Assembly (NCBI GenBank): GCA_958299035.1
Contig: CATQJL010000112.1
Coordinates: 65,689,117 to 65,753,116 of the forward strand
Source: Cylicocyclus nassatus
Lineage: Eukaryota > Nematoda > Chromadorea > Rhabditida > Strongylidae
Direction of reading: 5' to 3'
DNA: 64,000 nucleotides
Below, piece after piece: positions 1 to 55,589 of the stretch. The notes under the pieces were generated by a model. The model was not told the DNA's origin. It worked only from the letters and a program-made list of their open reading frames with translations, and searched no databases. Position numbers and translations under genes: made by a program. The first letter of the stretch is position 1. Each line of letters opens with the position of its first letter.

Positions 1-19610
<19,610 letters not shown>

Positions 19611-20261: not shown

Positions 20262-21580
20262 ATGGCTGACAAGGACGAACATGATGCGCCAGAGGAGGAA
20301 ACGAAACAAAACGACAAACATAATTGGGGTGCTGCGGATCTTGAAAAGGTAATTCCTTTTTGTTTAATATTAGTCTTCTGGATTCAAAAATGATATCAAG
20401 GTCAAAGAAGTCGTTGAAGACAAAGACGATTTGGATATGTCATCAGCCGCTCTAGGAAAAATTATGTCACATCCACAACCAGTGAGTTTTTTCGTCAGTT
20501 TGAATGTATTGTAAATTCTTTTCTTTTTCCTTCTAAAGCTGAGCTTCTCTACTTCCTTCCTCTTATTCAAAAGAAGCGGATGCCACGCAGCCGTTGCTCT
20601 AGAGCACGTTAAGATACGAGACATACACACAGAACAGATTTCGCAGTCGTTGCACCGTTTGCCACAGTACCCCCTAGCGCGCCTAACAGGGTGTTCGTGG
20701 CGGGACCAGCGTACCTGCGAACTTCAAAATGAACCTAATGCAGAAGCAGTTCTTGTCCGAGGTTTTGGGCGTACAAGAACTACTCAGGCAACGGATAGGA
20801 CCCCTCCGCCGGAGAAATGGCAGGGTCGCGGCGTTTCCCCAGCGGTGGATCTCCCATTTGTCCGCCGGATACCTCCCATTTTCTGCTCCGGATACCTCCC
20901 ATTTTCTGCTCCGGATACCTCCCATTTTCTGCTCCGGAGGCCTCTCATTTCTGCTCCGGACCCCTCCGATTTTCTCGAGCGCGGCTCTTCCAAATCTGGC
21001 GGACTCGCGCCGAGCAAATTTCTCCGGCGCGAGTCCGCCAAATCTGGCAGAGTCGCGCCGGAGAAATGGCATACCTTTGCAGCAGGGCCGGAGAAGCCTC
21101 CCACCCTGCCAGTGATGTCACCGCGACGGACCGCCCATTTGCCCCTCTCTCATTGGTCAACTGGGTCCGGCGCGACTCTGGCAGATTCGGACTGTCCGGC
21201 GGAGGGGTCCGGTCGATTGTCTGAGTACAAGGACATCAAAAGATGAGCGGTTTTTTTCGCACCTAACACAGGTGATGTATCATACGCAGATTCTGAGTCT
21301 ATTGCTTTCAGAACCGTTGTCTAAATTGGCATATTCGTAGTTGCTTTGTTTTTTTCTCTTACTTTCAGCCCTGGATCATCGTTCTTTCTCTCTTTCAAGG
21401 TTTTTCTACTAGGATAACGAGCGTATCAACGTTTCAATGAAGGTTCCCCAAGACTTATATTCCGGTCACCCCATTCTTCTAGTCTGAGTTTTCGCCATCT
21501 ACATGGCGAATGCTGTTTTTTTTGTTTCAGTCCCCTCAGCTGTAATGAGACGTAAATATGATCTTATATATAAAGCTGAA

Positions 21581-21611
<31 letters not shown>

Positions 21612-24600
21612 ATGTCTGTCTGTCTGTATGTCTGTACGTATGTTCCGAATAGAAAATTCCATTTCTGAACCGATCCGGACCAAACTTGGCACACATACAC
21701 TATGGGCCCCGGCGGGTGTCATAGGCTACTTTTCGTCATCGATCGATATCGATTTTATCGATTTTTATCGATTTTTTTGCTGAGTTCACCTACGGGGCTG
21801 GGAGTTGGCACAGGGGGGTAATCGAGCATGGGGATTCCGAATACAATATTGGTTTTCAGGATTATCGATTACTTTTATCGATTTTATCGATTTTTTTGCA
21901 AAGTTTGAGCTACGGGGCTGGGAGTTGGCACAGGGGGGTAATCGAGCATGGGGATTCCGAATACAATATTGGTTTTCAGGATTATCGATTACTTTTATCG
22001 ATTTTATCGATTTTTTTGCAAAGTTTGAGCTACGGGGCTGGGAGTTCGCATAGGGGGGTAATCGAGCATGGGGATTCCGAATACAATAATGGTTTTCGAG
22101 ATTATCGATTATTTTTATCGATTTTATCGATTTTTTTGCAAAGTTTGAGCTAGGGGGCTGGGAGTTGGCACAGGGGGGTAATCGAGCATGCTGATCATCC
22201 CCAAGGGGGGTGATCAGCATGCTATTACACCCCTGTGCCAAATTCCAGCCCCCTAGCTCGAATTTTCAAAAAATCGATAAAATCGATAAAAGTAATGGAT
22301 GATCTTGAAAACTAATATTGTATTCGTAATCTGCATGCTCGATTACCCCCCTGTGCAAACTCCCAGCCCCGCAGGTCAAACTTTACAAAAAAATCGATAA
22401 AACCGATAAAAGTAATGGACGATCCTGAAAACTAATATTGTGTTCGTAATCAGCATGCTCGATTACCCCCTGTGCAAAATCCCAGCCTCGCATGTCAAAA
22501 TTTACAAAAAATCGATAAGATCAATAAAAGTAATCGATAATTCTGGAAACTAATATTGTATTCGGAATCCCCATGCTCACTTCCCCCCTGTGCCAAATCC
22601 TAGCCCTGTAGGTGAATTCTGCAAAAAAATCGATAAAAATCGGTAAAATCGACATCGATCGATAACGAAAAGTGGACTGTGACACCCGCCGGGGGCCGAA
22701 GTGTATGTGTGCCAAGTTTGGTCCGGATACGGCGGAGCCGGGTAAGCCAGCTAGTTATTGATATTTCTCACCTTCATTCACTTCAGTTCCTCAGAGAAAT
22801 CCTATCATAAGCTCTAACACTGACGATGCTAGCTAGTCAGTGTACTACCTACCGGCTACTAGTCATGAGTGTAACTTGAGTCGATGTGTTATCTACGATC
22901 CAGATGATCAGCAACACATCATATCAATTCCAAGACCACTTTATGCAATTAGTAAGATTAAAGAAAGTAAGAAGGAACACATTTTGTGGTTGCATTACGT
23001 TTACTGTAAGTTAAGTCAGCGCCGCAATCCGAACGAATTATAGTTTCCCTTCGGATGCAGCCTTACGTACAAATAGTGACAAAATGCGAAGAGAAAAGGC
23101 TGCAGAATGACAGTGATCATGGGCGCAGATAGCATCGCAGGTTCTTTTTGAAGTTCGCGAGTGCGCGATGGTCCTGCCAGCAAATAGCGGCTTTCGCTTT
23201 GCTACGAACGCATACAGTTCCTAAAGCTGTTGCGTTAGAGTGTACGTTGGCATGAGCTCAGTCAATGAATGGAAAGACCTCAGCAATAGTTGAATTGTCA
23301 CACTATCTTGAGTTCTCAAAGTTATACACGGTGTAAGATCCAAACTCATGTCGTCACTCTTCCTTGAACAAGACAATAGGTAAGCTATACTAGGTTGTAT
23401 GGTAAGGTGTAGCTTTCAACACCTATCCAGGTGATGTTATACAGCTCAACAACTCATCAAGAAGGGCAAAACTCCGAACATCCTTAGTGCGACATTCATT
23501 CTTGGCTTTTACCAGCACCAGTTTCTGGAAGATGCTTCAAATAGAAAATAAACAGAATAACAGCTATTTTTTTCGATATCCAGAAGTATCACCCATCTAA
23601 ATAGGTCTGTTCAGTTTCTATGTATGATACGTTGAAACCCTGGACTGATCTAATCCACACTTGATGGGAAAAGACACTAATTTTCAGTAGTCAGTTGAGC
23701 TAAGGGCAATTACGGTGAAATGCAAAGTGGGGTCGAAATGCGTATTTTCCCTAAGTATTGATCCTAGTGCTTTGTTGAGTAAACCACTGGGTCAAACTCC
23801 TAGCAATAACTACGCAAATGCAATTTCAACCAGGGACGATGTGATTAACTCGGCTGCGAAACCAGTGACTTGAACGCGGTGCCACGAACAACCTGTTGGG
23901 CGCTGTAGGGGGTGCTGTAGCAAACGGTGCAACGACTGCGAAATCTGTTCTGTGACATACACTGGCGGCTTTCAGCGGGCTGCACCGTAGTCGCCTACGT
24001 TGATGACATCTCACGGTTATTATCTAAGGACGTCGTTGGCTGACCTATTCCCTTGGTTGTATATTGAGCTGCACGCAGTTTAGCGTGCCATATCGGGTGC
24101 GGACCCCAACTGGCATAAAGGATATTCGTCGACGACTGCCCCGACTCGTGCAATTACACCATCGTGGGCGCGCCTTTTGGGAGCCTTTCCAGCTTGACAG
24201 TAGGCTGCAGCGCGCGGGGACCTGAGAGCTCGCAGCATCCTTGTCCTTTAACCTCTTTCGTCTGTTAGACATTTCACATCGTTTTTTTCTTATTTTTCGT
24301 TCCAGGCATTTACACACTTTAATGACTATGTGAGACCATCGCCGCGGGCAAATGTAGAAGAAAAATGAGCTTTCTTCCTAGTTGCAGTGGTGGTTATCAT
24401 GGCATGATTAGAAATGCATATTTTCTTCGATGTTTTACAATGACTTGACATGTTTCTTAGGACAGACCATTGAAATGGTGCTTCAGCACTCTTATAGCAG
24501 GGACACGATGTGGGAAATAAACATTCGATGGATCTCATGTAAGGAGATGCATGATAAACACTATTACTCATGAACAAAGCACATGTTTCCACCTAACTTT

Positions 24601-27104
24601 GCCCGGTGCGATGATTCACAACTTTGAAAATAGATATTTCGTACGTAAAACGGAGGAATAATTCAGGAAATGTGCCCAAGGTAGTTTTTCCCTTTCTTTT
24701 CAGCCAACGAAGTAGAACATAGGATATTTGATCATAAAGAGGAACTAAAAGAAAGGGAAAACGAATTACTGCCTAAATATAAAAAGTAAGAAGAAAAAAC
24801 GATATGAAATGCTCAAATAAAGAAAAAGAGGTTAAAGGACAGTGTTGCTGCGAGCTACTGAGTCCCAGCGCGCTGCAGGTACTGTCCAGCTGGGAAAGGC
24901 TCCAAGAAGGCGCGCCCACGGTGGTGTAATTGCACGAGTCGGGGCAGTCGTCGACGAATATCCTTTACTCACAAGGGAGTATCGCGAAGTCGAAGTGGCC
25001 GATCACTACAAGATGCATATCATCATGAAGAGCTTGAAGCGCTGATTTTGAATCTACCTTCCATATTTCCAGAACTTCCGGGAAAGTAATCATAGTGTTT
25101 TATTTGTGGAAAATCTGCAGGCCTGATATAGCTAGTGTCAAGATCTAAGCAGCAAATGTCAAAAGTTAACCTGACCATTCCAAACAAGCTATATATCATC
25201 TGAATCGCCTTGAAACGCTGAGCTCAAGTATAAAGGGCCGGGCATATTTGACGCGATTTCAGTCGCGACGCGATTTGGCAGTATTCCAACTGTCCATAAC
25301 TCATTGTAAGTACATTTTAATACAGAAGATAGGGCATTTTATTAATCCACTTAAGTTATACACACTATGCATGTGCAGTTTGCTAGTGTTAGATCTGAAG
25401 ACTTCCGGCGATTTGCCAAATCGCGTGAAGTATGCCTGGCCCTTAAGTTTACCATCTGCCAAGCGACTGTCTGGAAGGGACCGGCCATACTATTCTAGGA
25501 GGTGATTCCTGCGATTCCTGTAATTCGTGCAGTTCCTGTAATTCCTCGACTTCCGATGCGGCGCACTACGTAGCGCTTTGCGAATTTCAAAATACCTTGT
25601 TTTTTCGCAGTGTATATTGTTACGGGACCCGCAGGAATCAAAGGAATTGCAGGGATCGCAGCCTGCAGGTGCTTCTTCCTTGAATGGAGAATACTCCACA
25701 GTGATTATTTATGGACTTTCAGGCTGCTTTGCAACGATTATATCCGTTTGAACTCGATAATTTCACAATAAAGGCCCAAAATTCGTTTCAGTTAGTCGTT
25801 CAGCACATATAAACGTATCATTCATTCTAACATTAAGACTAGGAGATGCGAGACCGCATTGCACACATTGTCTAAACAAACCTAATCGTGTACTTAGCAG
25901 GTTTATACTTGTCATTTATCTCGTTTAGGTTTATTCACTCTTTGGAAACAAGGAAGAACAAGCTCAAACTTGTTAAGACAATGTCCGCAATGCAGTCGCG
26001 CGTCTCCTGTGGCCGTATTCATCAACGAACTCAATGGGTTCCGTACGAAAAGTTCCACTGGGTTGGATCGATATTCCCAAAAAGCGCAGCTGGGTTCGCG
26101 AACTCACTAGCTTTGTGAATACCGATCTCGTGGGCTAAGCCTACCCAGTGGGTTGCGGAACCCATTGGGTTCGTTGATGAATACTGCCACTGGTCATAGA
26201 ATTGATGATTTATCTGAAGTCAGTATTGAGGCAAATCTGATAATATATAGCTTGTTCGGAATGGGTGGGTTAAGCTCCGACCATTCGCTGATAAGCATTT
26301 TGGGCTAAAAGCTACTTCAGTTTGAAATTTTCCTCTTAAATCTCTAGATTGTTACAAAGATTTGGTATTGCTGAAAGATTGCCCGCATATCATACACCGC
26401 GCAGATCCGGATCAAATTTGCTACTCTAATTTGCTAGTTTGCAACTTGTCCATTAATCCAACAACCCAATTTAGAGCTACTAGTCTTCAAGAATATCAGG
26501 CAAACTTTTTAGCTCACTAGCTCTGTGAAGTTACCACTTATTAACTTTGAGGGCTTTTGGTGGAAAATTAATCGAAAAAAAAACCTTAGTCGCTTTTCAC
26601 GGGTTTACTTCTAAATTTTTAATATCTGTTCGACATAATAAGAGGATAAACAGCCTACGCAATGGTCTTCTCTTCTAGAGCCTTACAAGACATTAGAAAT
26701 GCCCTGTTTGATATCCATCTAGCAATAAAAATCTCGCCTCTTGATATAGATTCGCTCAGATTCATCCCTCCCTTTTCCTCTCAATTTCTGACTTAAACCA
26801 CCAGGTGGCTTTCGAAATATATAAGTTGTAGGTGAATGACATTGCCATGCTAATTGTGTGTTCCTTGTATAGGCAGGATGATAAGGTTCGCTTTTTTCAG
26901 GTGCGACAAAAAATCATCAACATCAAAAAGGACGACTTAGAAATGATAATGAATGAACTGGAATTACCGAAGGTAGCTCTACTTCCCTATTCGTGATATG
27001 GCAGCACAAAAGTTTGCTTACAGAGCGTTGTGGAAAGAAAGCTTGTAGAAGTAAACGGTGATCCGATTGCAGCCATGAAAAGTTTTATGGGTTTTGATCC
27101 ATAG
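20262..27104 (+). CDS. HYPK: HYPK homologue (huntingtin-interacting protein K), four exons
   Basis: Exons 20262-20348, 20374-20481, 26901-26972 and 27024-27104 join in phase 0 to 115 codons. The conserved NWGAADLEK motif is in exon 1. The C-terminal UBA-like domain (INIKKDDLEMIMNELELPK, then VVERKLVEVNGDPIAAMKSF) is split over exons 3 and 4 and ends FMGFDP. HYPK is a small ribosome-associated chaperone-like partner of the NatA N-terminal acetyltransferase in characterised species. Length fits the family (about 115-130 residues). A CTCTGCAG acceptor two bases before the ATG suggests trans-splicing. Intron 2 (20482-26900) is 6.4 kb of transposon-rich DNA. A dead second copy lies at 38364-41713. 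Confidence 0.9.
20780..21235. repeat. GC-rich inverted/tandem repeat block
   Basis: The outer ends share GGACCCCTCCGCCGG in inverted orientation (about 20798 and 21207). Inside, three or more copies of a 24 bp unit, CTCCGGATACCTCCCATTTT, lie at 20862-20945, followed by repeats of a GGCGCGAGTC / GACTCGCGCC type. Several long frames on both strands come from this composition and are not genes. Base composition differs sharply from the AT-rich flanks. Confidence 0.6.
21562..22754 (+). mobile_element. Palindromic non-autonomous Helitron with 120-bp tandem arms
   Basis: The 5' end TC (21562, TCTTATATATAAAGCTG) is followed by a GTCT microsatellite. The 3' end is hairpin CGGCGGAGCCG then GGTAAGCCAGCTAG (ends 22754). 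It sits between A (21561) and T (22755), as Helitrons do. The interior has three direct copies of a ~120 bp unit (21788-22150; GAGCTACGGGGCTGGGAGTT, TATCGATTTTATCGATT). A GGGGTGATCAGCATG centre near 22200 follows, then about three inverted copies to 22620. No coding capacity. Confidence 0.8.
22755..23954. other. Right part of the 3.3-kb element; no gene seen
   Basis: It holds the right terminal repeat (about 23880-23954) but no recognisable protein or RNA gene. Confidence 0.5.
24117..24968. repeat. Inverted repeat with ~145-bp arms around a 560-bp loop
   Basis: Arms 24117-24258 and 24824-24968 are inverted copies (shared core GGATATTCGTCGACGACTGC and GAGGTTAAAGGAC). Left of the arm, the minus strand reads GVRTRYGTLN, which resembles the start of the endonuclease region of RTE-like retroelements. 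That similarity is weak and based on memory of the motif only. Confidence 0.5.
25234..25443. mobile_element. PIF/Harbinger-like MITE (GGGCCGGGCAT family)
   Basis: Ends AGGGCCGGGCATATTTGACG and (inverted) AGGGCCAGGCATACTTCACG are flanked by TAA duplications (25231-25233, 25444-25446). The 210 bp element has GCGATTT-rich subterminal repeats. Three-base TWA duplications are typical of PIF/Harbinger. Relatives lie at 28145-28375, 29436-29689 and 45991-46424. Confidence 0.65.
25841..26008. mobile_element. MITE with GACCGCATTG ends (copy 1)
   Basis: The left end AGGAGATGCGAGACCGCATTG-like and the right end, inverted, AGGAGACGCGCGACTGCATTG, share an inner ACATTGTCTTAACAAG region. A second copy is at 52381-52552. 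No coding capacity. Confidence 0.5.
26008..26193. mobile_element. MITE with GGCCGTATTCATCA ends (copy 1)
   Basis: Inverted ends TGGCCGTATTCATCAACGAA (left) and GTGGCAGTATTCATCAACGA (right, reverse complement), then AATGGGTTCCG. It directly abuts the preceding MITE. The element at 51594-51790 shares the terminal motif but not the interior. Confidence 0.5.
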
Positions 27105-29435
27105 CGTAGGTATCATAGATTTATACAGTTGCTTGTTGAATCGTGTTCATTGATTGTTACGGCTATACTGTACAGAAACCAGATAAATATTGCTATATCT
27201 CAAAAGGTCTGGATGGAAGGTTATGCATCTTGTTAGATTCATTTTTCAGTCGGGGTGTTTTAGGTGTTGCTGGATCATGTTACTCGTATGGGTATCTGCC
27301 AACGCGTAGAGTCATACGTCCCAAGCTGCTCAATCGAACAGATCATTCCACACTTCTCAAAATTGCCTCGAACTCTAAAAAGCTATCATCTCATGGAAAA
27401 GAAGCGGTAGAGAAAAAGAATTGGTAAGATGTGTTAGCGATGTTTGCGCTTGATAAGACTGTTCTCCAGGGAATGGGTTGCGAAATTTTTGGAAGTTAGT
27501 TGCATGTAAAATCATGCACATAACATATTTATATTTGTAAAGAACTGAAATTTCCTGGAATTTCGAGAATTTACATTGATCTTGCAAGCCCTTTTCATTT
27601 TTAGTTTATGGGCCGGAAAAATCTCGGAAAGCGTTTGCCTACTTATGTAGCCTTCAGCGGCGGTACAAGAAATTGTCCTTGGGGAGGAGGGGGAAGCAAG
27701 GGGTGACGGTTCTGTTTCAGAAGCCCGCCCTCCTTGATTTTCAGGTAGTTCCAGCTTTTGCAAGCTTTCGAACAGAAATCCTTGAAGAAGGAGGAGTAGC
27801 GGCAATGCTAGGTTTTTTTTCAAAAAGTAAATTCCGCTGCGAGTAGAAAGTGCACTCTGGAGAAAGAAAAGGCTTCTCCCAGGGAGATCGGGCCACTCCT
27901 TGCTCTTATTGGTCCGCCAATGGCATAAAGTCTGTTCTAGACGACGGTAAATTTAGTATACACTGCTGCACTGTAGTGCAGAAGGCTAAAAAAACTTTAG
28001 TTTTACTTCCAAAAATTTGTAGTTTAAACCTATGTGAGAGTAGCCCAGGATGGCGTTTATTAGAGCATGCCAGCTTTATTTCTCAGCTTTAAGCGAGAAA
28101 ACATTGCAGAAACTGTACTTATGAATATCGCATGTGGACAGTAAGACCTCGGGCAGAGTTCACGCGATTTTATCTCCTCGCGATTCTCTAACAAGACAAC
28201 TATTATGATCATTGCATGCTGATCTTCCTGTATTTTGTTGTGATAGTTTTTCGACATGACTAATCGTGACTAACATCATTACCGCAATGCAAGAGGATTG
28301 GCACGCAATGAACTAGTAACAGTTGTCTTTCTGGAGAATCGCGAGGCGATGAAATTGCGTGGACTCTGCCTGAGGCTTGAAGGCATACCTTCGATAGTCT
28401 AGAGACAGGGGGTAAAAAGTGAAGGTTGTTTGAACATCTGACGTCATAAATAGTGAAGGTTGTTTAAAGAAGATCAGAGAAGAGAATGTGACGTAAAACA
28501 TACATAAAAAGCGAAAGAAACTGCTGGAAACCGGATAAAAATGCTGCAATAAGGTTTGAAATCTTTCATTTGGCGGCTTTTCAGAGTGCAATTTTTCGCT
28601 CCAGGACCAGCAATTCGCAACACGGGGACTTTTTACCCCTGGAATGACGTTCCTATTTCCTGGGACGTTGTCTGGATTGTTGCGCTTATTGTTCTGAGCA
28701 ATAATCGCCCAAGCTGGAAAAAAACCGATGCGAAAGCACTGAAACTGAACAAGGTGAAGAAAAACGCACTTTTTACGATTTTTCGCAAAAAATTCCACCA
28801 TAATCGAAGAGGTAAGGGCTGGGTGGTTGTCTGCATTATGAACAGAAGCAAGATCTATAGAATGCACGAAAAAACCGCGTGAAAATAGTTAAACTAGGGG
28901 AAAAACAAGAGATTTTCGAAAACAAGGTTTTTGCCGGATTTCTCAATCAAATCAAAAAACGTTGTTCTGGGACGTTGTCAGCGTGAAAATAGAGATTGAG
29001 AGCTTCAAAATGATGTATAGCTTGCTAAAATTGGGTTCGAAACAGCGAAGAAAAGGATAGGATATAGGATTTTTTATTTAACTCCAATAGCTTTCCTAAA
29101 CTTCTGAAACTCGATTTTGTTCAAATGGGAGGAAAACAGAAATTTTGTCTTGTATTCTGGCGAAAATCCCACAGAAACCTTCTTTTTAAGGTAAAAAAAG
29201 GCTATGAAAACGCAAATTCTCGGTTTCGCTGAGATAAGCTAAAGATATTAATCCCTATATTTGCTTCATCAACATTCGTTCCGATATAGTATAGTCAGGG
29301 TAATAACATCCGGGGCAAAGCCCCGGATGACTTCTGTTTTTTTTCCAGGTGAATGTTGTGCCCCCCCCCCCTCCCATAGCCCTTAAAGTGAAGGTTACCA
29401 GAGTACGTGGCTCTTTGTATCGAGGGTATGCTTAA
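27105..29435. other. HYPK 3' flank; duplicated segment, no further gene
   Basis: The 27105-27400 part is paralogous to 41714-42000. A degenerate Harbinger-like MITE lies at 28145-28375. Overlapping frames on both strands near 28313-28882 lack recognisable domains and are not called. Confidence 0.5.
28145..28375. mobile_element. Degenerate Harbinger-like MITE
   Basis: GACCTCGGGCAGAGTTCACG at the left is matched by inverted CAATTTCATCGCCTCGCGATTC / GACTCTGCCTGAGGC at the right. It is the same family as 25234-25443. TAA precedes the left end; the right duplication is lost. Confidence 0.4.
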
Positions 29436-29689
29436 AGGGCCGGGCATACCTCACGCGATTTCAGTCGCTACGCGATTTGGTACAGGAACAGCCGTGTTTT
29501 GTTTATAACTGGTCTAAAATGCGCTTTGCTTGAGCAGGACTTGTTCTGGTCACAACAACTTACAAAGGGTAATTGCCTATGCTTTTGAAAAGAGTGCACA
29601 ATAATTCCGTACAAATCTGGCAAATCGCCAAGTCGCGTGGAGGTGGCGATTTGACCAACTCGCGTGAAGTATGCCTTAGGCATGAGGCC
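29436..29689. mobile_element. Harbinger-like MITE
   Basis: Left end AGGGCCGGGCATACCTCACG; right end, inverted, GGCCTCATGCCTAAGGCATAC (about 29670-29689). TAA lies on both sides (29433-29435, 29690-29692). Confidence 0.5.
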
Positions 29690-29986
29690 TAATGCATGAT
29701 CAAATTGGAGGCTTGTAGAACTACATGGAACGGAGGTCTTGCATTTTGGTCACCCAAATATAATTTTATTTAGATTACAACTTCGCTTGAATTAAACTAC
29801 TTGCGGTTTGCAAGTATTATCTTGTAGAGCTTGTTTTCTTCCTAATGGTTGTTTACCATATTTTTATTGTCTTGCCGCGCTAGGTGAAGAACTTGCCTCA
29901 ACCACAGGAATGGACTGTTAATCACTACAGGGAACGAAAAATATATTGGTTCATACATCTCGATGATTATTTGGTTCGCGAAATTT

Positions 29987-30477
29987 CTATTTTCCTCTCT
30001 TCATGAGTTCCTCAAGTGGAAAAGTACCGCCGTTCGCACATCTTGAGCAAACGCATGTCTTGCGTCCGCTTCTATTCTCGGCAGCATCCAGTTCCGCAAT
30101 TCTGCAATCAGCCACGATTATGCTTTGGTGGTAGCTTATCTAATTAAGAAAAGTTAAAATTACTCTATCAGATAAGTAGTAATCATTTTAATGAAAAAAA
30201 TCGCAGTTTTAAGCCAAAAAAGTCAGTTTTTTTTTTGATTGAAACCTTTTCACTCTCTTCAATTTTTGTCCTGTTTCGTGCATATTTATCTCGGAATCTT
30301 TCCTATGATCTTTTCCTTTAATTAACTTACCTGTAAACGGCATGATGTTATACAAGCTGCTCGAGAAACTTTGCCGAGAATTGACATATCCATTCTTGCA
30401 CATGTGGTGAAGTAGATTCGAGTGCCGGCCAAACCGAGAAGTGCAAATAGCACAGTGCACAGAAGCAGATTGTTCAC
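29987..30477 (-). pseudogene. Broken ASABF/abf-like antimicrobial peptide gene (copy A)
   Basis: Paralogous to the intact copies at 36 and 43-44 kb. The exons would be 30331-30477 and 29987-30101. Two lesions are visible. The start codon is GTG (30475-30477) where the others have ATG. In exon 2 an extra base near 30080 shifts the frame and creates a stop at 30072-30074, removing four of the eight conserved cysteines. The TATA-like element of the other copies is also changed (ACAAATG for ATAAATG). It is therefore a pseudogene unless the lesions are assembly errors. Confidence 0.8.
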
Positions 30478-30905
30478 TTTTTTGCTAAATTGTCAGTTAT
30501 TGTAAATGACTATCTATTGAGATTTCAAGATTGGCTAGAAGGAAAAAATGCATAATCTTTTGGATTGCAATGCTGAAAGGATCAACTGCTCTCTGATAAG
30601 GCTGGTAAACTTTGACCTGTACTCGCGACATTTGTAAGCTGACGCCCCCAAGAAAACTTGTGATTAGGTTGTGTAAATAATCTACCGTAACTGAAAGGCG
30701 ATTTCTACGTCCACATGCGGCATACTCGGAGCGTTGGTTTTTGAAAACATTGCGATGTTGGGCTTATTTCTCTCGCTTTTAGAAGAGGAGTTATGAGAAT
30801 TTTCTTAGGCAAAAACTTCAAGCTTTTGGCTAAGATAAAAACAAGTGCTGAGGTCTTTCCGGCGTCTTAACCGAGTAATGAGTAACATGAGTTAATAAGC
30901 TAATA

Positions 30906-33799: not shown

Positions 33800-34734
33800 T
33801 AGTAATAATTGCATGGAGCGCCCTGACAGGAGTCATGGTCCCGTTTAAGTTTACAGTCTATAATTCTGGGCATTAGTGCAGCTGCGCGTTGAAATTTCTG
33901 CTCCAAAAATCCCCATAACTCCCTTCCCAGAAAAACTTTGCAGATAGCGAGAGCAGAATCGGAATCAGCGCTCCATGTTTTGAAAGTCAGCTTACCTTTT
34001 GTGTGGAAACGCCATTTCGACCAAGTATCCTCCCCTTGTCAGAATCGCCTCGAACACTAAAACTGTTATCTGATAGAGAAGCGTTTGAGGGGAAAACCCG
34101 ATGATGTTTTGTTGGCAATCCTGCAACTGATAATCCGTCACAGCTCAAAAGCGTATATCAAATGCGTACTCGAGATTTCCGTTTCTCCCCCCCCCCCCCC
34201 CCCGAAAATATCTTGACTACCGCTGAAGGCTACGTACCTCAGCAATGAAGAATCTGAGGATCTTCGTAAATCACTACAGGCTAGCGTTTGCAATTCTTTT
34301 TTTGTATAGCTTGCAATAATAGTCACTTTTCAAAAAAAAGGAGCGAAAAATATCCAACAAAAATTACAGAATTGCCTGCCATTTCTGCTGGCAACAGTTT
34401 GGTTGGACTTTGGAACTCAGAATTCGTACCTCCGGGCCAGAAGATTCCGCGTACTTGGTCACTTCCCGCATCAGACAATCAGTACACTTGCTATTATATG
34501 TATCTACATTCATTTATGGCTGAAGATTGAAAAGGGAAAAATATGAATATGTTGCGTTTTTTGGGTTTCCTACCAAGTTTGATATTTCTCGGATATTAGG
34601 TTAGACCGGAAGTTATGTCGCTTCCAATCTGAAAAATTTGCAGCTGCTTGCTGGAACGTATACGCTTACAAGGGAAGCTTGTTTAGTCGAAATGGCCTTT
34701 CTAAATGAGATGTATACCTTGTTGAAGGACATAA

Positions 34735-35171
34735 AGGCAGTGTCCCGGCAGATTCGGGTTCTGGGGGATATACGTGTGGTGGGGTTCCTGGTCACCCCAT
34801 CGACCTCCAGGCGCACTCCGGCTGGGTGATGTTCCCCCTGGGCCGAGAAAATGGCCCTTGAACCGGCGCGCGCAACCTCAACTGGCGCGCGCTTGGACGG
34901 CCTTCCCCGCCTGTTCAGCGCGGGACCCCACGAGCGCTCTCCCCCATGATGCATGCTACCAAAGCAAGAATTACAGACGGCAGGATCTTCATCTGAGGAC
35001 CTCCCCCAACTTTCCTTTAAAAATCTCGTCCAAGCTGCTTTTCTGGAATTAGGAAAACGCCCCAAAATCGGCCTTTTCAGCGCGTTTAAAGCTCAAATTC
35101 GGATTCTACGTGGCGAAAAGGCCTAAAACATGCAAAAAGGTGGAGGTGCAAAATCTGCCGGGACACTGCCT
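34735..35171. mobile_element. GC-rich MITE inside duplicated block
   Basis: Ends AGGCAGTGTCCCGGCAGATT and, inverted, AGGCAGTGTCCCGGCAGATT (perfect 20 bp) enclose 437 bp with CCGGCGCGCGC motifs. ATAA lies at both borders. A nearby inverted sister segment (35470-35590) reads GGGCATAAATTGCTG across the site without the insert, supporting the borders. The 150-codon minus frame across it is compositional. Confidence 0.65.
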
Positions 35172-36103
35172 ATAAAACGCTGACTCCAAATCTGCCTTCC
35201 TTATCTGCAGACCCTTATGCACGAGAAGTTATGAGGGTTTTTTAGAGCCAAAAATTGGACATACATTTTTTGTAAAATGAGTTGCTAAAATTCTACTAGC
35301 CCTAATTATTGCAACCACTTGTGGTATATTTTTCATTTAAAAGCATTTTTCAAATAAAGTGCTCTGATGATTATCATTGCTCCATTGAAGAGCTAGAAAA
35401 AGTATTACGGCTATTTTTGTCCTACTTGCACATTCAATTTTTTGCTTCAATAACCGCCCATAGCTCCTCGTCCATTAACGCTCAGCAGATAAGAAAGGCA
35501 GATTTGGAATCAGCAATTTATGCCCTTTAATATGATATACGTCCCATCTAAAAAAGCCCACTTCGACTAAACATGCATTCCTTGTAAGAATAAATTTTAC
35601 CCGAAAGAAATAACCGTACTTGCTAATAACATGTTCGCTCCTTGACGACAAGGGACAACAAAGGTTAGAACTCAAATAGGGGGACCCCGACCTGTTCTGA
35701 AGAGAGCCGTTAGAAATCTGAATTGCCGTAGAAAGTCTGAAAACATGTTTCAAACAAAAAACGTAAGCTGCTCTTTTTTAACATGCAAAGTTCATGTTGG
35801 TCGAGTTTTTCCTGCATTTCCGAGAAAATGCAAAAAACACCAAAAATTATGTGCTTGCATTTTTTTTTGTTAGAAAGAGCAATTTGCGTAGATTGTAACA
35901 AACATATTTCTAAACTTTTCTGCGGTGTTTCAAATTTTTGACAATTTATTCTATACTAGCAACAGCTTAAGTGCCCATATTTGCTCTGCCGCTCTAGCGT
36001 AAAAAAACGTGCGTGCATCAACTACAGGAGTGAGCTGTTTCATTGCAAGCACAAAAAATGAAATGATTCGTATATATCCCTGAATATTTGTTTCACAGAA
36101 TTC

Positions 36104-36841
36104 TTATTTTCCTTTCTTGATGAGAGACTCGATTGGAACATTGCCGCCCTTCGCACATCTTGAGCAAACGCACGTCTTACGTCCTTTTCTGTTCTTGCAG
36201 TATCCAGTTCCACAATTCTGCAATTAGCCATGTTTATGAAATGCTGGTTTCAAGTTATTGAGAAATTATGATCTACCAGATCAATGTTAGTCACCTTAGT
36301 GAAAAAATCCTTGTTAGGCGAAAAAAGTCAGTTTGGAATGCAGCCTTTTTTCAATCTCGCCAATTTTTTTTTGTCGGATGGAAACACAAATTTCTACTTT
36401 TTGACTTCGAGTTATGAGCCTGCAGTTCAATATAAGTAGAAATCACCATTTTCTCTGCTAAGTCGTCAAGGCAAAAACTAGTTGTTGTCAATTTTTCAGA
36501 AAATCACAGTGAAGCAGTTGAGGACCGAAGGGAAGAACTTTTTGTTACCACGCATCAAGTGCTCAGATTAATGATATTGAATTTGAGTATCTCAAACTTT
36601 ATCTAGCTTGCTTCCTTTTAAAACTAGGGCTAATGCACAAAGTGTTAGACGCCCGTCTCACTTGCTATTTGTTTTCTTCCCTTGATTAGGTTACCTGAAC
36701 ACTGCATGATGTTATACAAGCTGCTCGAGCAGCTTTGGCGAGAATTGGCGTATCCATCCTTGCACATGTGGTGAGGTGGACTAGAGTGCTGGCCGAACCG
36801 AGAAGGGCAAATAGCACAGTGCACAGAAGAAGATTGTTCAT
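36104..36841 (-). CDS. abf: ASABF-type (CS-alpha-beta) antimicrobial peptide, copy B
   Basis: Two exons, 36695-36841 and 36104-36217, give 86 residues. An N-terminal signal peptide (MNNLLLCTVLFALLGSAS, about residues 1-20) is followed by a mature region with eight cysteines in the ASABF pattern: TCARMD, AACITSC, NCGTGYC and TCVCSRC. It ends in a Lys-rich KKGK tail. Founding members are Ascaris ASABF and C. elegans ABF-1/-2, secreted peptides active against bacteria. The intron falls just before NCGTG. An AATTTAG acceptor 5 nt before the ATG suggests trans-splicing. All residues expected for the fold are present, so I call it functional. Confidence 0.88.
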
Positions 36842-36992
36842 TTTTAGCTAAATTGTCGATAATTGTAAATGACTATCAGATGGGATTTTATGACCGTGAG
36901 AAGAAAAGGGCATAATTTCCAACTGAAATGCAAATGTGAAAGGATAAACTGCTGTCTGGTAGAGCTGGTTATGCTTGACCTGTACTCGCGAC

Positions 36993-36999
36993 ATTTATA
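36993..36999 (-). promoter_or_regulatory. TATA-like element upstream of abf copy B
   Basis: CTATAAATG on the minus strand, about 152 nt before the start codon. The same spacing and sequence recur at copy C (44186-44192) and are altered at dead copy A. An AGGATAAAC GATA-type site lies between it and the gene. Function is inferred only. Confidence 0.3.
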
Positions 37000-38689
37000 G
37001 GCTGATTTACGCCCTCAAAAACTTGTGAGTAGGCTGTGTAAATAATCTACCGTGACTGGAACGCGATTTCTACGTCCACTTGCGGCATACTCGCAGCGTT
37101 GGCCTTTGAAAACATTGGGACGATTGGACTTATCTTATATTTTGGTCGCATAATGTGGGTTATCAAGTTTCGTACTGTATGTATTGCTCTATTTCCACAG
37201 AGGACCACCGTGCCCGAATCCCCGGGCATAGTTCACAAGATTTGGCAACGTGCCAAATGTTTTCGAAATCTAAAAACGGCAGACTGCAAGTGTATACATG
37301 CACGTATAATTTTCGCAGATTAATAGGATGCCCTATCTACTGTACACTCGGATTGCGCTTAAGATGCATTATGAATATTGGGACAACGCATCGCGTCGAC
37401 TGAAATACCGTGCAAATCCAATCTGACAGTAACAGCTGTTGAATGCGCATTTTTCGACAATCATATTTGCCCGAACAAAAGATGAGCGACTGTAGATTAC
37501 CCTTATTCTGGGTTCATTACCGATTCTCATGTTCCGAAACTGTTCCGACAGTTTCCGCACTGTGCTGGAACTGTTCCGAAACTGTGCTGCATGCGCTGCA
37601 ACCGCCCCACACGCGTTTTGAACGGCGGGAGTTGGGGAATTTTGACCGTTTTCAACGTTTTTCCTTCCAGATTTCTCTCATTTTGGCCTTATTCCTCTAC
37701 TCCGCTTCCCTTTTTGATCAGTAGAGATTCAAACCCGAAGGGGGTTCAAAAATTAGCGTTTTTCTGTTCTGTCCGACAAAATGTCTGTTCTTGCGCTCGT
37801 CCATTCTCGCTTCGTTTTCTTTTAGCACAAGCCTATTCCATTTGTCCCAGGAAGCCGCTGCAGAAGTTTCCGCAGGCTCTGCTCGAATTAGGACATGCGA
37901 ACATTCTGAAAATGCGGAAATGGAAATTTTGCTTTTGATTTTTGATGAGTTCCGTTTTTGGACATTCTCAGCCCCTTTCCTTTTTCCATAGCGTTGCTTC
38001 TCCGTTCTCTCTTCTACCCCGCTTCTCCCAGTGAAGAGGAAAACTGCGAACTTGAAGCGGGGCTCGAACAACTTTGTTTTCCATGTATCCTGCAGATGGT
38101 CTTCGTGCGCTCGTCCATATTCTCTTCCATTTTTGCTGTTTTTACTTCATGTGGTCTAGAGACTTTTTATTTCCTTTTCAATACAGATGCGAAAATACGC
38201 AGTACCTTCCTGGAACACATGAAGTAGGTTTGAACAAAAGTAGCGAAGAGAGAATAAACGAGCGCACGAAGACCCATCTTCCCGGATGCATAGAGCAGAG
38301 CGTTAAATTCTCAACCCCGCTTCAAGTTCACAACTTTTCTCATCTTCCCAGTCAGTATCAATCCTCTGGAACTAAAATCTGATGTCAAGGTCAAAGAAGT
38401 CTTTGATGACGAAGATGTTTTGGATATCATCAGCCGCTCTGGCAAAAATCGTTTTGCATCCACAACCAGTGAGCTTTTTCTCGTCAGTTTTGGTATATCA
38501 AAAGTTTCTCCTTTTTTTAAAGTAACCTGTACTCTGTTTCCTTCCTGAAAAAGAGGCGGATGCTAGCCGTTGGACCAGAGCACGTTTAGAATAATGACGA
38601 GACAGTGACGACGTGCTTCAGCGGGCTGAGCCATAATCGCCGACATTGTGATTTTTTGGTGTTTGTTCGTTAGCTCTCCTTGAAGAAGT

Positions 38690-39720
38690 CTTTTGCTAAT
38701 CTTCAAGTACCTTAGAGCTGGTTTCAACTAAGTTCACACTATGGAGCGAATCAGAAACCGCTCTCACGGTAGGTTTACGGTAGAAGCTGCGAGGAGACTT
38801 TCAAGTAAATAAGGGCCTATTTTACATTTAAAAGAAAACCAGAGAAGCTAAAAACTTCCACACTAGTTAAGTCCGAGTTACTAATTTTAATTATGAAACT
38901 CGCACTTGGCCGTGATGCTTTTTTTCTCCGTTATGCAAGATATACTGCGAAAGTCGATTTTTCGATTACACTACACAAAATTTACAGAAATTACAGAAAT
39001 TACTTAAAGGAATCTGATTACGCTTTTTGAAAGCTCTGAAAATTCCGGACTGTTGTGTAATGAAATCAGCTTGCATGAAACCTTAAAGGTAGCGATACGG
39101 CAGAATGATAATTTGGGATATTCATCGCTCTCGGTTCCCCTAGACGAGCTACGTCCAAGATTGTGCTTTGCAGCTTCAAAAGATGTCGGTAATTCGCCTT
39201 TCCCGACGTGAAAATGCTATTTGGGCGGACCGCGTATCCTGCTTTCTAGAGCGCTATTGGCTTATGAGTGGAGACACCGTACCTACCGTACCCACGAGCC
39301 AATCGCGCTCGAGGAGAGGAATACGTCGTCCGCTCAAATAGCACTTTTCACTTTTGGAAAAGCGGGTTATTGATATCTCTTGAAGCTGCAAAGCACAGTC
39401 TTGGACTTAGCTCATCCAGGGGAACCGAGAGCGATGAAGATCCAAAATTTGTCATTCTGCGAGCCGCTGCCTTTGATAGACGATTTCTTTACATTATTTT
39501 GAAAATTTTCTGCTCAAACGGCCTATCCCACAGTGGCGCCACTTGCTGCGAGTTTCTACCGTAACCACAGTGTAATAAAGAGCGAACAGTGCTTCTCTTC
39601 ATACTTCAAATCTAAGTTGAAGGCAGTTCTACAAAACGGTACCTAAGGTAGGCAAAAAACTTCTTAGGAGGAGAGATATTTGATTAAACAGTGTGTACAT
39701 ACTTTTAAAACACTCTGTAT
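38690..39720. repeat. Inverted-repeat region of a dispersed ACAGTGT...CAAAAA family
   Basis: Segments such as GAGCTGGTTTCAACTAAG (38714) and TTGAAGGCAGTTCTACAAAA (39616) are inverted relatives. The same core appears near 44495-44900 and 59500-60095, where the outer tip reads GTGTCCCAAAAAATTTGC or, inverted, TGTCTCAAAAAATGTGC. This is probably a mariner-type palindromic family; ends are not securely placed. Confidence 0.4.
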
Positions 39721-40117
39721 AACAATTCGCGTTTGCAGTCTAGGTGAGGTTGGCTGACTACTCAATTTCCTAGATGTACGCTGAATTGCATGTATTTAGC
39801 GTCCCACATCGGATCGCGATCCCAGGTGGCACCCACAAACTATGGGCTAGTAGATCTGTCGCTTATATGATGTCCACTAATTGTGGTGAACTTGAAGAAT
39901 TTCCTTTTATTTGGTTCTTTTAAAAGATATTTTCCCTGATTTTTTCCGACACCGAAACCCACTTTTCTAATTCATACCGCAAAGCAGCGTAAAGACATGT
40001 CCCGTATATCGTAGGTCGCTTTGGATGAGCTCTGTCTCAGATTACCCCCCCCCTTCCCCACATTCTAAGTTAAAGGCTACGTCCAAGCAACTTGAGAGTG
40101 GCAAGATTTCAATTCTA

Positions 40118-41063
40118 TTAGGTTGTTACATAAGTCTTGTTACACTTTACTTCTTACGGCGATAAGTCAAGCACCTCACATTCTTTACAGGGCTCCAGGG
40201 CACCAATCGATAGAGCAAAGCAAGCTCTACAAGATAGTGTGCAAAAGTGCGCACGAACTTCGACCCACTATAAGTTTGCATCCAAAATCTGAGTCGTACT
40301 GAAGGCTCAAAAATCACGAAAAAGTCATATCTTTGCTCAAAAAAATTCTAGAAATTTCTAACTTGCTCATAAAAATTGCACACTATATCAGACACTCATA
40401 TGTACCGTTGCTGTATCTCTTCCTCATCTAGAAATCGAGAAAACGAAAATTTTCTTGTTCTTACAAAAAGCAAGCTATGCTGCTTCTATTTATGTAGTTG
40501 TATACTAAAAGCCCTTAGAAGTATAAACGTAAATTTTCAACTTTCCAGAAGCCCTAATTTTCAAATACCGAACTTTGCTTTTTTCGCTTGGGTGTTCAAT
40601 GCTAAATTGGGTGATTTTCGAAAACTAGGGATTCTAAAAAGCAGAAAATTTACGGTTATACTTTTAAGGGCTTGTAGTATACAGCTACATAAATAGAAAC
40701 AGCATAGCTTCGTTTTTGTAAAAACATGAAAATTTTCGTTTTTTCGATTTCTAGATGAGGAAGAAATACAGCAATGGTACATATGAGTGTCTGATACAGT
40801 GTGCAATTTTTATGTGCAAATTGGAAATTTGTAGAATTTTTTGGGCTCAGATATGAATTTTTCGTGAATTTTGAGCCTTTAGTACGACTCAGATTTTGGA
40901 TGCAAACTCATAGCGGGTCGAAGTTGGTGCGCACTTTTGCACACTGTCTTGTAGAGTTTGCTTTGGTTTATCGAATGCTACCCTGTAGCCCTGTAAAGAA
41001 TGTGAGGTGCTTAACTTATCGCCGTAAGAAGTAAAGTGTAACAAGACTTATGTAACAACCTAA
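40118..41063. mobile_element. 946-bp mariner-type palindromic MITE
   Basis: Ends TTAGGTTGTTACATAAGTCT (40118) and its reverse complement ending 41063 are flanked by TA. The two halves are near-complete inverted copies meeting near 40595, so the element is almost wholly palindromic. The TTAGGTTGTxxCATAAGT tip is mariner-like. A related tip with TA starts at 58461. No coding capacity. Confidence 0.75.
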
Positions 41064-43044
41064 TATATAGTAGCGAAGCCTCGAACGAAGTTCCCAAGTC
41101 CCGCTGTAAAAGATGGATTCCAAAGCGGGAAAATAGCTCCAGAAATTAGACGCGGCCAAGATTGCTCCGCCCATCAACATGGGCGGAGCCATCTTAGCCG
41201 CTTAGCCTCTGAAAATAAAGAGCTGGAAAGTGATATCGGGTGGATAAAAATAATGAAAATCTTGTAAATATAATGAATGGCGAATTACTGACAATTTAAA
41301 TTACAGAGTCTAATTTTGGACTTGTTATCTTAGACCACTCACGCTGATGGGCGGAGCCACCTTGACCACCTTTATCTTCTGGAGCGATTTCCTTGCTTTG
41401 AAATCCATCTTTTGCAGGGGGAGTTGTGCGATCATTTAGTTAGGGGCTCCGCTATCATACACCATTGAAGCCGAACACCCACAATTTGACTGGACAGTGC
41501 TTTAACAACATGTGCCGGTCACCCTATACCGTCTTCGAAACCACCACATAGTTCTTTAATAAATGACGGGGCCATGCTAATTGTATTTTCCCTGCGTAGC
41601 AGGATTTGCTTGTAGAGCGTGGTGGAACGAAGGCTGGTAGAATTAAACGGTGATTGACTTACTTCTGCGAACCGATTGCAGCTATAAATTGCTCTGTGAG
41701 TTTTGATTCATAGCGTAGGCACATAAATTTATACTGCTGCTTTTTGAGTTGTGTTCATTGATTGTTACGGCTATCTACAAATCAGATAAATATTGCTATT
41801 TCTCAATATTGTCTGGGTAGAAGGTCATTTCGATTAAAATCATTTACGTTTTCGGGAGCAAGTGCTTTAGGGTTTTGCTAGATCATGTACTTGTATCGGC
41901 TGGGCCAGCGCGCAGATTCATCAAACGGCAGTCCCAAACCGCTCAGCGACAATTCATTCTATACTTATTATTGTTAGAATCGCCTCGAACCCTAAAAACT
42001 ATCATCTGTTAGACAAGCACTTGGAGCAAAAAACCCGGTGATTTTTTTTGGCAATGCCCGCAACCGATAGTCCGTCAGATAAAAGCGTATATCAGAGGCG
42101 TACCTGAGATTTCCGTTTTCCTTCCCCCCCCCCCCTTGAAAATATCTTGACTGCCGTTGAAGGCTACATACCTAAGCAATGAAAAAACTGAGGATTTTCG
42201 TAAATCACTACAGGCTAGCGTTTGCAAATATTCTTTTTTGTATAGCTTGCAATAATAGTCACCAAAAAAAAAGAACGACAAATATATGCAATTAAAATTA
42301 CAGATTTGCCTGCCATTTTCATTGGCGACAGTTCGGCTGAACTTCGGAACTAAACAAAAATTGGACCTCCATCCAAAAAGATTCTGCGTACTTGGTCACT
42401 CCCCGCATCAGACAATCATATGCACTGTACATTTATTTATGGCTGAATATTGAAAAGGGTCAAAAATAAAAATATATTGCGTTTTCTGGGTTTTTTATGC
42501 TAAATATGATATTAGTCGGATATTAGGTTGACCGGAAGTTATGTTGCTTCCAATTTAAAAAATTCGCAGCTGCTCGCTGTAGACGCTAAAAGGTAAAATC
42601 AAATAGGGAAATACTATCCGACCTCTTGATATTCTGGAATGATTCGTCAAAAATCTGGAACGCTGCCGAAAAATCTGCTTTTTTTTAGCATGCGTTAACA
42701 TACCAACTTTGACCTTTATTGACATGTTTGAAAGAGCTTTTCCTGCATTTTCGAAAAATTGCACAAAACAGCAAAAATCATTTTTTAGCATTTTTCTTCT
42801 GTTAAAAAGAGCCGTTTGCGTAGATTGTAACAATGCCATTTTCAGATTTTTCTGCAGCGTATCAATTTTCGAGAATTTATTCCAGAGTATCAACAGCTTA
42901 AGTGCTATTTGCCCTGCCGCGCTAGCGCAGAGTGCATCAAGAGGAGGAACTGTTTATGAACAGGAGTGAACTGTTTATTATGATTGCAAGCACAGAACAT
43001 GAAATGGAGCATACATTTCCCTGAATATTTGGTTCACAAAATTT

Positions 43045-44032
43045 TTATTTTCCTTTCTTGATGAGATCCTCGAGTGGAACATTGCCGCCGTTCGCACATC
43101 GCGAGCAAACGCACGTCTTGCGTCCCTTTCTGTTCTCGCAGTATCCAGTTCCACAATTCTGCAATTAACCATGTTTATGTTTTAATGCTGGTTTCATGTT
43201 ATTAGGAAACTATAGCTACTATCAGATATCACTCTAGTGAGAAAATCTCTGTTTTGAGTGTAAAACAAAGTCAGTTTTTTGGAATGAAACCTTTTCAATC
43301 TCGCCAAGACTTTTTCTCGGAGGAAACACAAACTAATTATTATTTTGTGATTTCGCTGCAATCATGAACCCGCGAAATCTTGTAATAACTAGGAAACTCC
43401 ATTTTCTCTGTCAAGTTGTCAAAGCAAAAACTCTTTGGTACGAATTATTTTTGAAAAGCATAGCCAAACTTAAGCAATGATTTGAGAAAACTTTATACCC
43501 CCCCCCCCGAGAAAGGGTCGCGATATTTTTGAAACTTACTTACATGGGTTGTAAAATGTGCCGGGGGCGTGGCTGGCGCCTTTCTCTAGATTTCAGAAGT
43601 TATGGAAGCGTAAAAACTTGAGATACACATCAAAATTTTTTTCGTGTTGCGCGGATAACGCCATGCACTTTTATTTGAAAATTTTTTTGCAGCTCCCCCC
43701 CCCCTCCGGCCGAAATCGTGCGACCGCCAATGCAAAAACCGCTAGCTTGCTTCCTTCTGAGGATAGGTCCAATACCAGTGATGATTTTTTCTTACCAGAA
43801 AAATGAGAGATGCCCGTCTCACTCACCTATCTTGTGCACATTTATTTTCGGAATTTTATCTGATTTCCTCCTTTGATTAGGTTACCTGTACACTGCAGGA
43901 TGTTATACAAGCTGCTCGAGCAGCTTTGTCGAGAATTGGCACATCCATTCTGGCACAGGTAGTGAGATAGATCTGAGTGCTGGCCAAACCAAGAAGGGCG
44001 AATAGCACGGTACATAGGAGGAGATTGTTCAT
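43045..44032 (-). CDS. abf: ASABF-type (CS-alpha-beta) antimicrobial peptide, copy C
   Basis: Exons 43886-44032 and 43045-43158 encode 86 residues. The signal peptide is MNNLLLCTVLFALLGLAS; the eight-cysteine core again has TCARMD, AACITSC, NCGTGYC and TCVCSRC, ending in KKGK. It differs from copy B at a small number of sites, such as acidic residues after LPIL-type and NVPLED positions, so the peptides are close but not identical. The intron is larger (727 nt) and holds a C tract and a purine-poor stretch. AATTTAG lies just before the start codon. Probably functional and secreted. Confidence 0.88.
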
Positions 44033-44133
44033 TTTTTGCTAAATTGTCAGTTATTGTAAATGACTATTAAATGGGATTTTTAGACAGATGAGAAGAAAAG
44101 GGCATAATTCCTAAGTGGAATGCAAATGTTGAA

Positions 44134-44192
44134 AGGATAAACTGCTGTGTGATAAAGCTAGCTATCCTTGACCTGCACTCGCGAAATTTATA
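44134..44192 (-). promoter_or_regulatory. TATA-like and GATA-type sites upstream of abf copy C
   Basis: CTATAAAT-type element at 44186-44192 and two GATAA motifs (near 44136 and 44150) lie 100-160 nt before the ATG. GATA factors such as ELT-2 drive intestinal defence genes in C. elegans; use here is inference. Confidence 0.25.
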
Positions 44193-45990
44193 GGCTGATT
44201 TACGCCCCCTAAAAAACTTGTGAGTAGGCTGTGCAAATAATCTACCGTGACTGAATAAACGAGATTTCCACGTCCACAAGCGGCGTAATCGTGGTGATGG
44301 CCTTTGAAAACATTGCGATCATTGAGTTTATCTCTCATGCTGACGAATGCACTGCATGGTGTCATGTTTTGTGACTCACTGAAGTTTTAGGCAGAGATCG
44401 TAGACGAGTTTGACTCAGCAATGAAGGTTTCTTTATCCACTGGTCACTTAGTATGGGTCATCGAGTTTCGTACACATTTCTATGTACTGAAATATACAGT
44501 GTCCCAAAAAATTTGCACACTGTCTGAGTCAATAATCCTCTTGCTTCAATGCCTTTTGTCAATTCTTAGGTACCATTCTGTAAAGCTGGCTTCAACATAG
44601 GTTTATAGTAGAGAGCGAACATCCAATCTCTCTTCTTAACGTAAAATTACGGGATGAACTTTGATATTCCAGGGAAACAGTAAAAGCTGCTCTTTCAATG
44701 TTCGCTATGTAATTAGATCGAAGGTCAAAAAAACTTGAAAGTATTGAAACGTATTCAGCACGCTTGAAAACCATGCTACACAATCTTCTAGTTTTTTGGA
44801 GGGCAATTTCTTATCAAACGGCCTATTTCGAAATGGCGCTGTATGCTGAACGTTTATACCGTAATCCTACAGTAGTGAAGAATGATCGGGCATTCGTTTC
44901 ATAATATCAGGCTGCTGCATAAGTTTTGTCCGATTTGAACTTTTTGAGCTCAAAATGTCACAACTTCTTTCATTGTCAACTTTTTTCCAAGATCGTAATT
45001 TTCATGCGTTGAGCTGCTCCTTGTTATCAGACACGTGTAGAACCTGCGAAATTCATTGCTAAGGAGAAAAAGAATAAGCAAGGACTCAAAAACTTTGCAG
45101 CGTTTTTCTTCAAAACTGTCTTTTTTGACATGGCAATGCTCCCTTATGGGAATTGATAGGGACCTTATCTAATAAATAGATCAATTTTCGTAGATTATTT
45201 TGCAACATAAAAGAGCCCATAGGGTCTGCGTTGCCGAAAGATTTTTTTGACCGAGCAGAAAAGAAGCCATTTTTTCACTTCGCTTCAGCGCACGTATGTG
45301 CGCCTAATTACGAATTACGAATTATGCAATTTTTAGAATCGGCGTGAGCGCCAAAGGAATTGGTGGATAGATCCTTCTGGCTCTTGCTTTACCCTAGCAT
45401 CTCCAACTCTGATCTCATCGATTACTTCTATAACATCTACACAAAAAATTGTTCGACAATAAATTTCACCAGCAAGACGCTTTCTTCATGGAACTGAGCT
45501 ACTGCATATACTAGCCTTCTACACCCTTATTCCGCAACCAGTGAAAGAACTTGACCTGAAGGGTGCATTGTGGAGATTTTCTCGTAGGAACATATTTCTA
45601 GGGTGAGGACGTACCTCGGCCACTTGTAGATTTCAGGCCTGAAATCTCCCTACACTAAGAAACTTATTGAAATTTGATATGCGTTAAAAAGAGCAAGAGA
45701 AGCACTTTTCAATGATACTAACAATACTGCATTAGAGATGATTTTCTTAATACAGCTGCTTCAAACGTAAGGCAAAACAAAATTGGACAGACCTCAGCAG
45801 CCTAATACAAATCTACATACTTTACAGAATGGTACTTAAGATTGAAAAGACACCGAAGAAAGCAAGTTATTAACGATACTGCGCACATTTTTTGGGACAT
45901 GATGTATTTTGAGAGGATTCACCGTGCTGCTGTAATTTTGTGCAGGACGACGACTGTAGCGCGTGATAACTCGGCGCGGCTTTTGTCCAA

Positions 45991-50337: not shown

Positions 50338-50916
50338 GCAAAAGTTTGTAGACTTAAGGCTCCACTTTGCATCCCTTTTATATCAGATAAGGTTAGCGCG
50401 GCAATTAGACGATGCATTCACCGAGCTGAACTGCAGAATGATGTGATATTGGTTGAGGTACCGAAAGATAACATTAAGAAGCAGCTAGTTCGGAATAGAC
50501 TCTACGATTACGAATGCATAGTAGATGAATGCATCGTATGCCCGTACGGCAATGTTGGGGATTGTGCAAAGGCAGGTGTGATATACCAGCTGGAATGTTT
50601 GAGCTGCCAAGACTTCTACATAGGAGAGACGGGTAGAGCGTTGGGTGTAAGACTAAAGGAACACTTGGCTAGCAAAAGACGTGGGATATTAACAACACCG
50701 TTGGGAAGACACAAAGCTGAGGCACATGGTGGAAATGACTTTAAAGTCAAATGTACCATTCTGTCTTACGAGACTGAGATTTGCGCAAGAAAAATCCTTG
50801 AGGCAGCATGGATACTTACGAGGAATCCTAAAATGAATGCTAAGAATGAATGCGTGTCAATCAACAGTGATCTCTTGCCGTTCATACCGCTATGCAATCT
50901 GAACAACCGCACATAA
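50338..50916 (+). CDS. GIY-YIG endonuclease end of a Penelope-like retroelement (fragment)
   Basis: An open frame of about 190 codons with no start. It begins in sequence typical of the RT-endonuclease linker (PLCIPFISDKVSAAIRRC, LVRNRLYDYEC), then a cysteine cluster (CIVCPYG...GDC) and the GIY-YIG core (GVIYQLECLSCQDFYIGETG with RLKEHL). LGRHKAEAHGG and ARKILEAAWI follow. In Penelope-like elements this nuclease follows the reverse transcriptase. The RT is not found upstream, so this is a truncated 3' copy. The frame is undamaged, suggesting a fairly recent insertion. Confidence 0.85.
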   Translation, partial: AKVCRLKAPLCIPFISDKVSAAIRRCIHRAELQNDVILVEVPKDNIKKQLVRNRLYDYECIVDECIVCPYGNVGDCAKAGVIYQLECLSCQDFYIGETGRALGVRLKEHLASKRRGILTTPLGRHKAEAHGGNDFKVKCTILSYETEICARKILEAAWILTRNPKMNAKNECVSINSDLLPFIPLCNLNNRT

Positions 50917-55585: not shown

Positions 55586-55589
55586 AGAC

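Follow-up and report, generated by a model that had tools for sequence, protein, structure and literature searches.

The window analysed here is a stretch of 64,000 nucleotides of contig CATQJL010000112.1 (positions 65,689,117 to 65,753,116, forward strand) of Cylicocyclus nassatus, a small strongyle and parasitic worm of horses. It contains two copies of a segment carrying the HYPK gene and an abf defensin gene, and a third block with abf only. HYPK is intact beside a broken abf in the first copy (block A) and broken beside an intact abf in the last (block C), while the abf frame of the middle block (block B) is open. This arrangement is probably the outcome of a tandem duplication followed by ordinary birth-and-death, redundant copies having been lost by chance. 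Homology, gene order, lesions and the direction of residue changes are established directly, the lesions being read from the assembled sequence.

Layout of the duplicated blocks

We compared the window with itself by BLAST and took collinear same-strand matches as blocks. As a sequence-only reading had proposed, HYPK with a convergent abf was found twice and abf without HYPK a third time (given there as 34-37 kb):

20368–30772, no strand: block A, part matching block C (self-BLAST)
34036–37135, no strand: block B, abf-only copy (self-BLAST)
38356–44336, no strand: block C, part matching block A (self-BLAST)

Blocks A and C matched at 20368–20614/38356–38590, 27013–27391/41605–42007, 29952–30257/43010–43302 and 30270–30772/43826–44336; B and C at 34036–34653/41971–42579, 35803–36509/42734–43463 and 36666–37135/43857–44333; A and B at 29894–30267/36014–36368 and 30313–30767/36677–37133. 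The right edges of the blocks agree (30772, 37135 and 44336 for A, B and C), and a further short B–C match lies past them (37143–37175/44441–44473). The left edges are discordant: A extends through HYPK exon 1, C begins within HYPK intron 1 and B begins behind HYPK exon 4.

The two genes of the blocks are arranged tail to tail, HYPK being on the plus and abf on the minus strand. The Kimura two-parameter distance (K) between A and C was 0.260±0.036 at the HYPK 3' flank and 0.261±0.035 at the abf 5' flank. The equality of these two values fits a single joint duplication of HYPK and abf, a part of the earlier reading that is supported by the conserved gene order and convergent orientation as well, as far as sequence comparison goes.

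Intact and broken gene copies

The gene copies and the repeat that adjoins one of them are as follows:

20262–27104, plus strand: HYPK A, intact, exons 20262–20348, 20401–20481, 26901–26972 and 27024–27104 (translation equal to protein P0001)
38390–41713, plus strand: HYPK C pseudogene, exon 2 remnant at about 38390–38468 and exon 4 remnant at about 41616–41713 (alignment to HYPK A)
29987–30477, minus strand: abf A pseudogene, exon 1 (30477–30331) without start codon, exon 2 (30101–29987) frameshifted (three-way alignment and exon translation)
36104–36841, minus strand: abf B, open, 86 amino acids, exon 1 36841–36695, exon 2 36217–36104 (exon translation; Pfam Antimicrobial25)
43045–44032, minus strand: abf C, intact, 86 amino acids, exon 1 44032–43886, exon 2 43158–43045 (translation equal to protein P0023; Pfam Antimicrobial25)
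38033–38344, no strand: foldback (imperfect inverted repeat) directly adjoining block C on its left, within the former HYPK intron 1 (self-BLAST)

HYPK is intact in block A alone. Its spliced translation is identical to a C. nassatus protein of 106 amino acids (P0001), the sole protein of this species among 22 HYPK matches. An exon 3 start at 26877, giving a protein of 114 amino acids, was dropped in favour of 26901 on account of P0001 and a better splice site. The Pfam, human-HYPK and HYPK-homologue searches used the 114-residue model, which is 8 residues too long; with it the UBA_HYPK domain scored 53.4 bits (cut-off 27, E 1.7e-14) and human HYPK (6c95_D) was matched with an E value of 1.3e-10. 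Intron 2 is 6.4 kb long and repeat-rich. Long foldback (palindromic) elements were detected by self-BLAST at 21673–22728, 40116–41065 and 54876–55591, the first two of which sit in intron 2 of HYPK A and of HYPK C. Among the public HYPK models, that of Strongylus vulgaris (P0013, 79 amino acids) is without the exon 2 residues, either through an error in the gene model or because the form skips that exon.

In block C, alignment to HYPK A revealed all three lesions that had been proposed: a 2-nt deletion in exon 2, loss of exon 3, and an insertion in exon 4, which measures 17 nt. Exon 3 was lost in a clean deletion spanning some 133 nt: at 41605, block C lacks positions 26880–27012 of A (to within one base). 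The 45 bases that precede exon 3 are retained in block C and continue directly into the DNA ahead of exon 4, indicating that a single deletion took the exon. Exons 2 and 4 and the exon 3 flank were once present. Over 52 comparable codons (stop included, the two at the deletion dropped), HYPK A and C have 29 codons the same, 7 with silent and 16 with residue-changing differences. With 10 of the 21 further HYPK proteins as reference, 14 of these 16 residue differences are derived in C, one is derived in A and one is ambiguous. HYPK C presumably yields no product.

The abf copy beside the intact HYPK is likewise broken as claimed: three-way alignment and translation of each exon confirmed the lost start codon and a one-base frameshift in exon 2, and showed that a stop follows. 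Copy C translates to a C. nassatus protein of 86 amino acids (P0023) without a difference and scores 93.3 bits against Antimicrobial25 (E 9.1e-27, cut-off 27). Copy B, which the earlier reading had counted as a third abf, proved to be a complete frame of 86 amino acids, with 86.3 bits (E 1.4e-24, same cut-off). Eight cysteines lie behind residue 20 of abf C and none is altered in abf B; the N-termini of both are hydrophobic by eye, as in a putative signal peptide. C. nassatus accounts for two of 56 abf matches, P0023 and P0059, the latter 63% identical to abf C and located on a contig of 93,436,948 bases. No database protein more than 88% identical to abf B was present among 51 matches, and the public gene set of the species may therefore miss this copy.

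Divergence, constraint and rival explanations

Block B and block C differ by K values of 0.152±0.025 ahead of abf and of 0.179±0.020 and 0.244±0.033 in two pieces behind it. Three observations weigh against the explanation favoured below, the tree of the copies not being a clean one. In the abf intron, the three-way alignment gives the highest K to B–C (0.402, against 0.363 for A–B and 0.320 for A–C; 0.342±0.043 for B–C aligned pairwise). In abf exon 1, A groups with B. Finally, in a short piece of HYPK intron 2 shared by A and C, the A–C distance reaches 0.456±0.085, exceeding both flanks. Judged by these distances, block B is nearer to C across the flanks but not everywhere. Exon 1 (30331–30477, 36695–36841 and 43886–44032) has a mosaic-like appearance, A and B sharing states against C while the neighbouring DNA groups B with C. 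Sites at which C alone varies stand to those at which A alone varies as 13 to 8 in the exon, as 24 to 70 in the parts next to it (Fisher p 0.003) and as 46 to 99 in everything outside the exon (p 0.013 against exon 1). A and B thus look to have exchanged exon 1, possibly by gene conversion.

Coding changes suggest that HYPK A stays constrained and that abf C is the most clearly constrained abf copy. Over 84 codons, the ratio of nonsynonymous to synonymous divergence (Ka/Ks) is 0.17 for B–C, 0.83 for A–B and 0.22 for A–C. Changes confined to a single copy are, silent to residue-changing, 6 to 15 in A, 3 to 9 in B and 14 to 1 in C; about 76% residue-changing would be expected without constraint. 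As 12 of the 14 silent changes of C sit in the mosaic-looking exon 1, the assignment of silent changes to B or C is uncertain.

According to the favoured explanation, a segment with HYPK and a tail-to-tail abf would have been duplicated in tandem in the lineage of this worm, giving blocks A and C, and a further event would have given the abf-only block B, nearer to C over most of its flanks. Redundant copies would then have been lost through chance mutation, HYPK C having lacked exon 1 since its birth or shortly thereafter and having gathered its frameshift, exon deletion and insertion, and mobile elements would have filled the block junctions. We infer the number and order of the duplications, and chance rather than selection presumably picked which copy died. 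The earlier reading spoke of reciprocal decay after the joint duplication. The opposite states of the genes on A and C, established by the lesions, bear this out, but the stress on reciprocity is weakened by the open abf B and by the missing exon 1 of HYPK C. Similarly, its statement that the useful genes survive on different blocks holds for HYPK in A and abf in C, but abf is open in B too; with three copies, one of them open in B, the abf story is no simple matter of A against C. Moreover, two genes each losing one copy at random are expected to leave their survivors on different blocks half the time, so that reciprocity needs no special cause.

There is about an even chance that HYPK C was dead from the start, a duplication break within HYPK intron 1 having left the copy with neither exon 1 nor a promoter. 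This sharpens the favoured explanation rather than opposing it: abf A would be the sole true decay of a working gene, and the pattern would amount to a partial duplication with a single pseudogene. Such a course agrees with the start of A–C homology at 38356, inside intron 1, and with our search for the missing parts of the gene, in which six queries were locally aligned to three stretches on both strands (36 tests, 100 shuffles each). Exon 1 had no match in 37136–38355, 38591–41604 or 30773–34035 on either strand, the top score being reached by at least 31 of 100 shuffles in each of the 6 tests, and the 1.2 kb of DNA upstream of HYPK A had none in the same stretches and strands (at least 9 of 100 shuffles). 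Since neither was found and homology begins inside the intron, HYPK C may never have been whole and may have arisen without a promoter. Against this, block C has the foldback exactly at its left edge, where an insertion or a later deletion could have removed a former exon 1. The search also returned an exon-3-like match at 32168–32228, between A and B, which was rejected as chance (reached by 1 of 100 shuffles in one of the 36 tests, and by 2 of 100 with wider flanks); no other trace of HYPK was found in block B or in the gap before it. It is very improbable that the blocks are two haplotypes, or mis-assembled copies, set end to end: the non-coding identity between copies (67 to 86%) is lower than alleles would be expected to show, the blocks are in order and differ in their repeats, and a public contig of 89,099,805 bases carries proteins from either end of the region.

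Somewhat doubtful, though to be taken more seriously, is that abf B is also decaying, later than A, its constraint lost and its frame open by luck. The 3 to 9 ratio of its own changes is near the unconstrained expectation, all 10 residue differences between B and C are derived in B (polarised against 13 of 55 other abf proteins, a polarity that does not depend on abf A), and the database search returned no such protein. However, the uncertain assignment of silent changes means that constraint on abf B may be underestimated, and luck of this kind was rare in a neutral simulation of 20,000 runs for three branch lengths, its rate taken from the non-coding B–C comparison (K 0.215, with 29 gaps over 1467 sites): frame, start and all eight cysteines were retained together in just 1.4, 0.6 and 0.3% of the runs. 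It is therefore probable that abf B was maintained as a gene during some of its history or was renewed by conversion. A still less likely reading, drawing on the retained frame and cysteines, the 10 derived residues and a rise in charge, is that abf B is a defensin changing its role rather than debris. Counted from residue 20 (an assumed signal cut) as (K + R) − (D + E), the net charge is +11 in abf B and +6 in abf C. Among simulated proteins with 8–12 changes, a rise of at least 5 was seen in 0.6% of 969, 1.4% of 209 and 0 of 25, the measure having been chosen post hoc. Were it true, a single duplicated immune gene would have met three different fates within 24 kb: death in A, conservation in C and re-tuning in B.

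Neighbouring features and known systems

Between blocks A and B lies a transposon-like element, probably of Tc1/mariner type:

30905–33800, no strand: 2.9-kb transposon-like element whose inverted ends are the same over 23 nt (exact match found twice in the window and in none of 100 shuffles)

Elsewhere in the window, 920–11075 holds on the minus strand pieces of a dynein heavy chain gene, whose AAA_7, DHC_N2 and DHC_N1 domains are spread over three frames. The frames 48222–48767 and 50338–50913 contain a Pif1 helicase 2B domain and a GIY-YIG domain, respectively, and are possibly mobile-element remains. No RNA families or tRNAs were detected in the window at the settings used.

Among the papers listed by a literature search, none was on this locus. 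HYPK is a partner of the NatA acetyltransferase, and other HYPK proteins bind and restrain NatA (PMC5467210). By its UBA_HYPK domain and its match to the human protein, HYPK A resembles known HYPK, from which it shows no difference apart from having a pseudogene 18 kb downstream; a NatA role here would be by analogy. The abf copies resemble nematode abf (the mollusc/nematode defensin subgroup of CS-alpha-beta peptides) in their Antimicrobial25 domain, their eight cysteines in the mature part and their tandem arrangement, but differ in that copy A is a pseudogene and copy B has 10 derived residues and a higher net charge. Expansions of antimicrobial peptide genes in particular nematode genera are mentioned in PMC10506718. 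HYPK and an abf protein are on contigs of equal size, presumably one chromosome, in Necator americanus and Nippostrongylus brasiliensis. The N. americanus locus tags are about 200 apart (RB195_007477 for HYPK, RB195_007686 and RB195_007689 for abf), so no close pairing is apparent in that species. For Ancylostoma duodenale, the largest contigs listed for HYPK (56,195,560) and for an abf protein (52,648,243) differ.

The loss of opposite duplicates is termed divergent resolution or reciprocal gene loss, an example being DPY19L2, whose working gene was relocated within low copy repeats (PMC1475853). As in that case, a segment was duplicated and one gene copy silenced while the other is active. 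The C. nassatus copies differ in being tandem and about 18 kb apart, in involving two neighbouring genes and in that one of these was maybe never complete. Because the copies lie so close together in tandem, no reproductive barrier would follow.

In this compact locus, three immune-gene copies that have reached different stages can be compared with their lesions, their flanks and a constrained neighbour, and, as abf B suggests, open abf copies can be absent from public gene sets. General ideas on gene duplication are unchanged by it: the locus is a clear but ordinary example of the pruning of duplicated genes, a new example and not a new kind.

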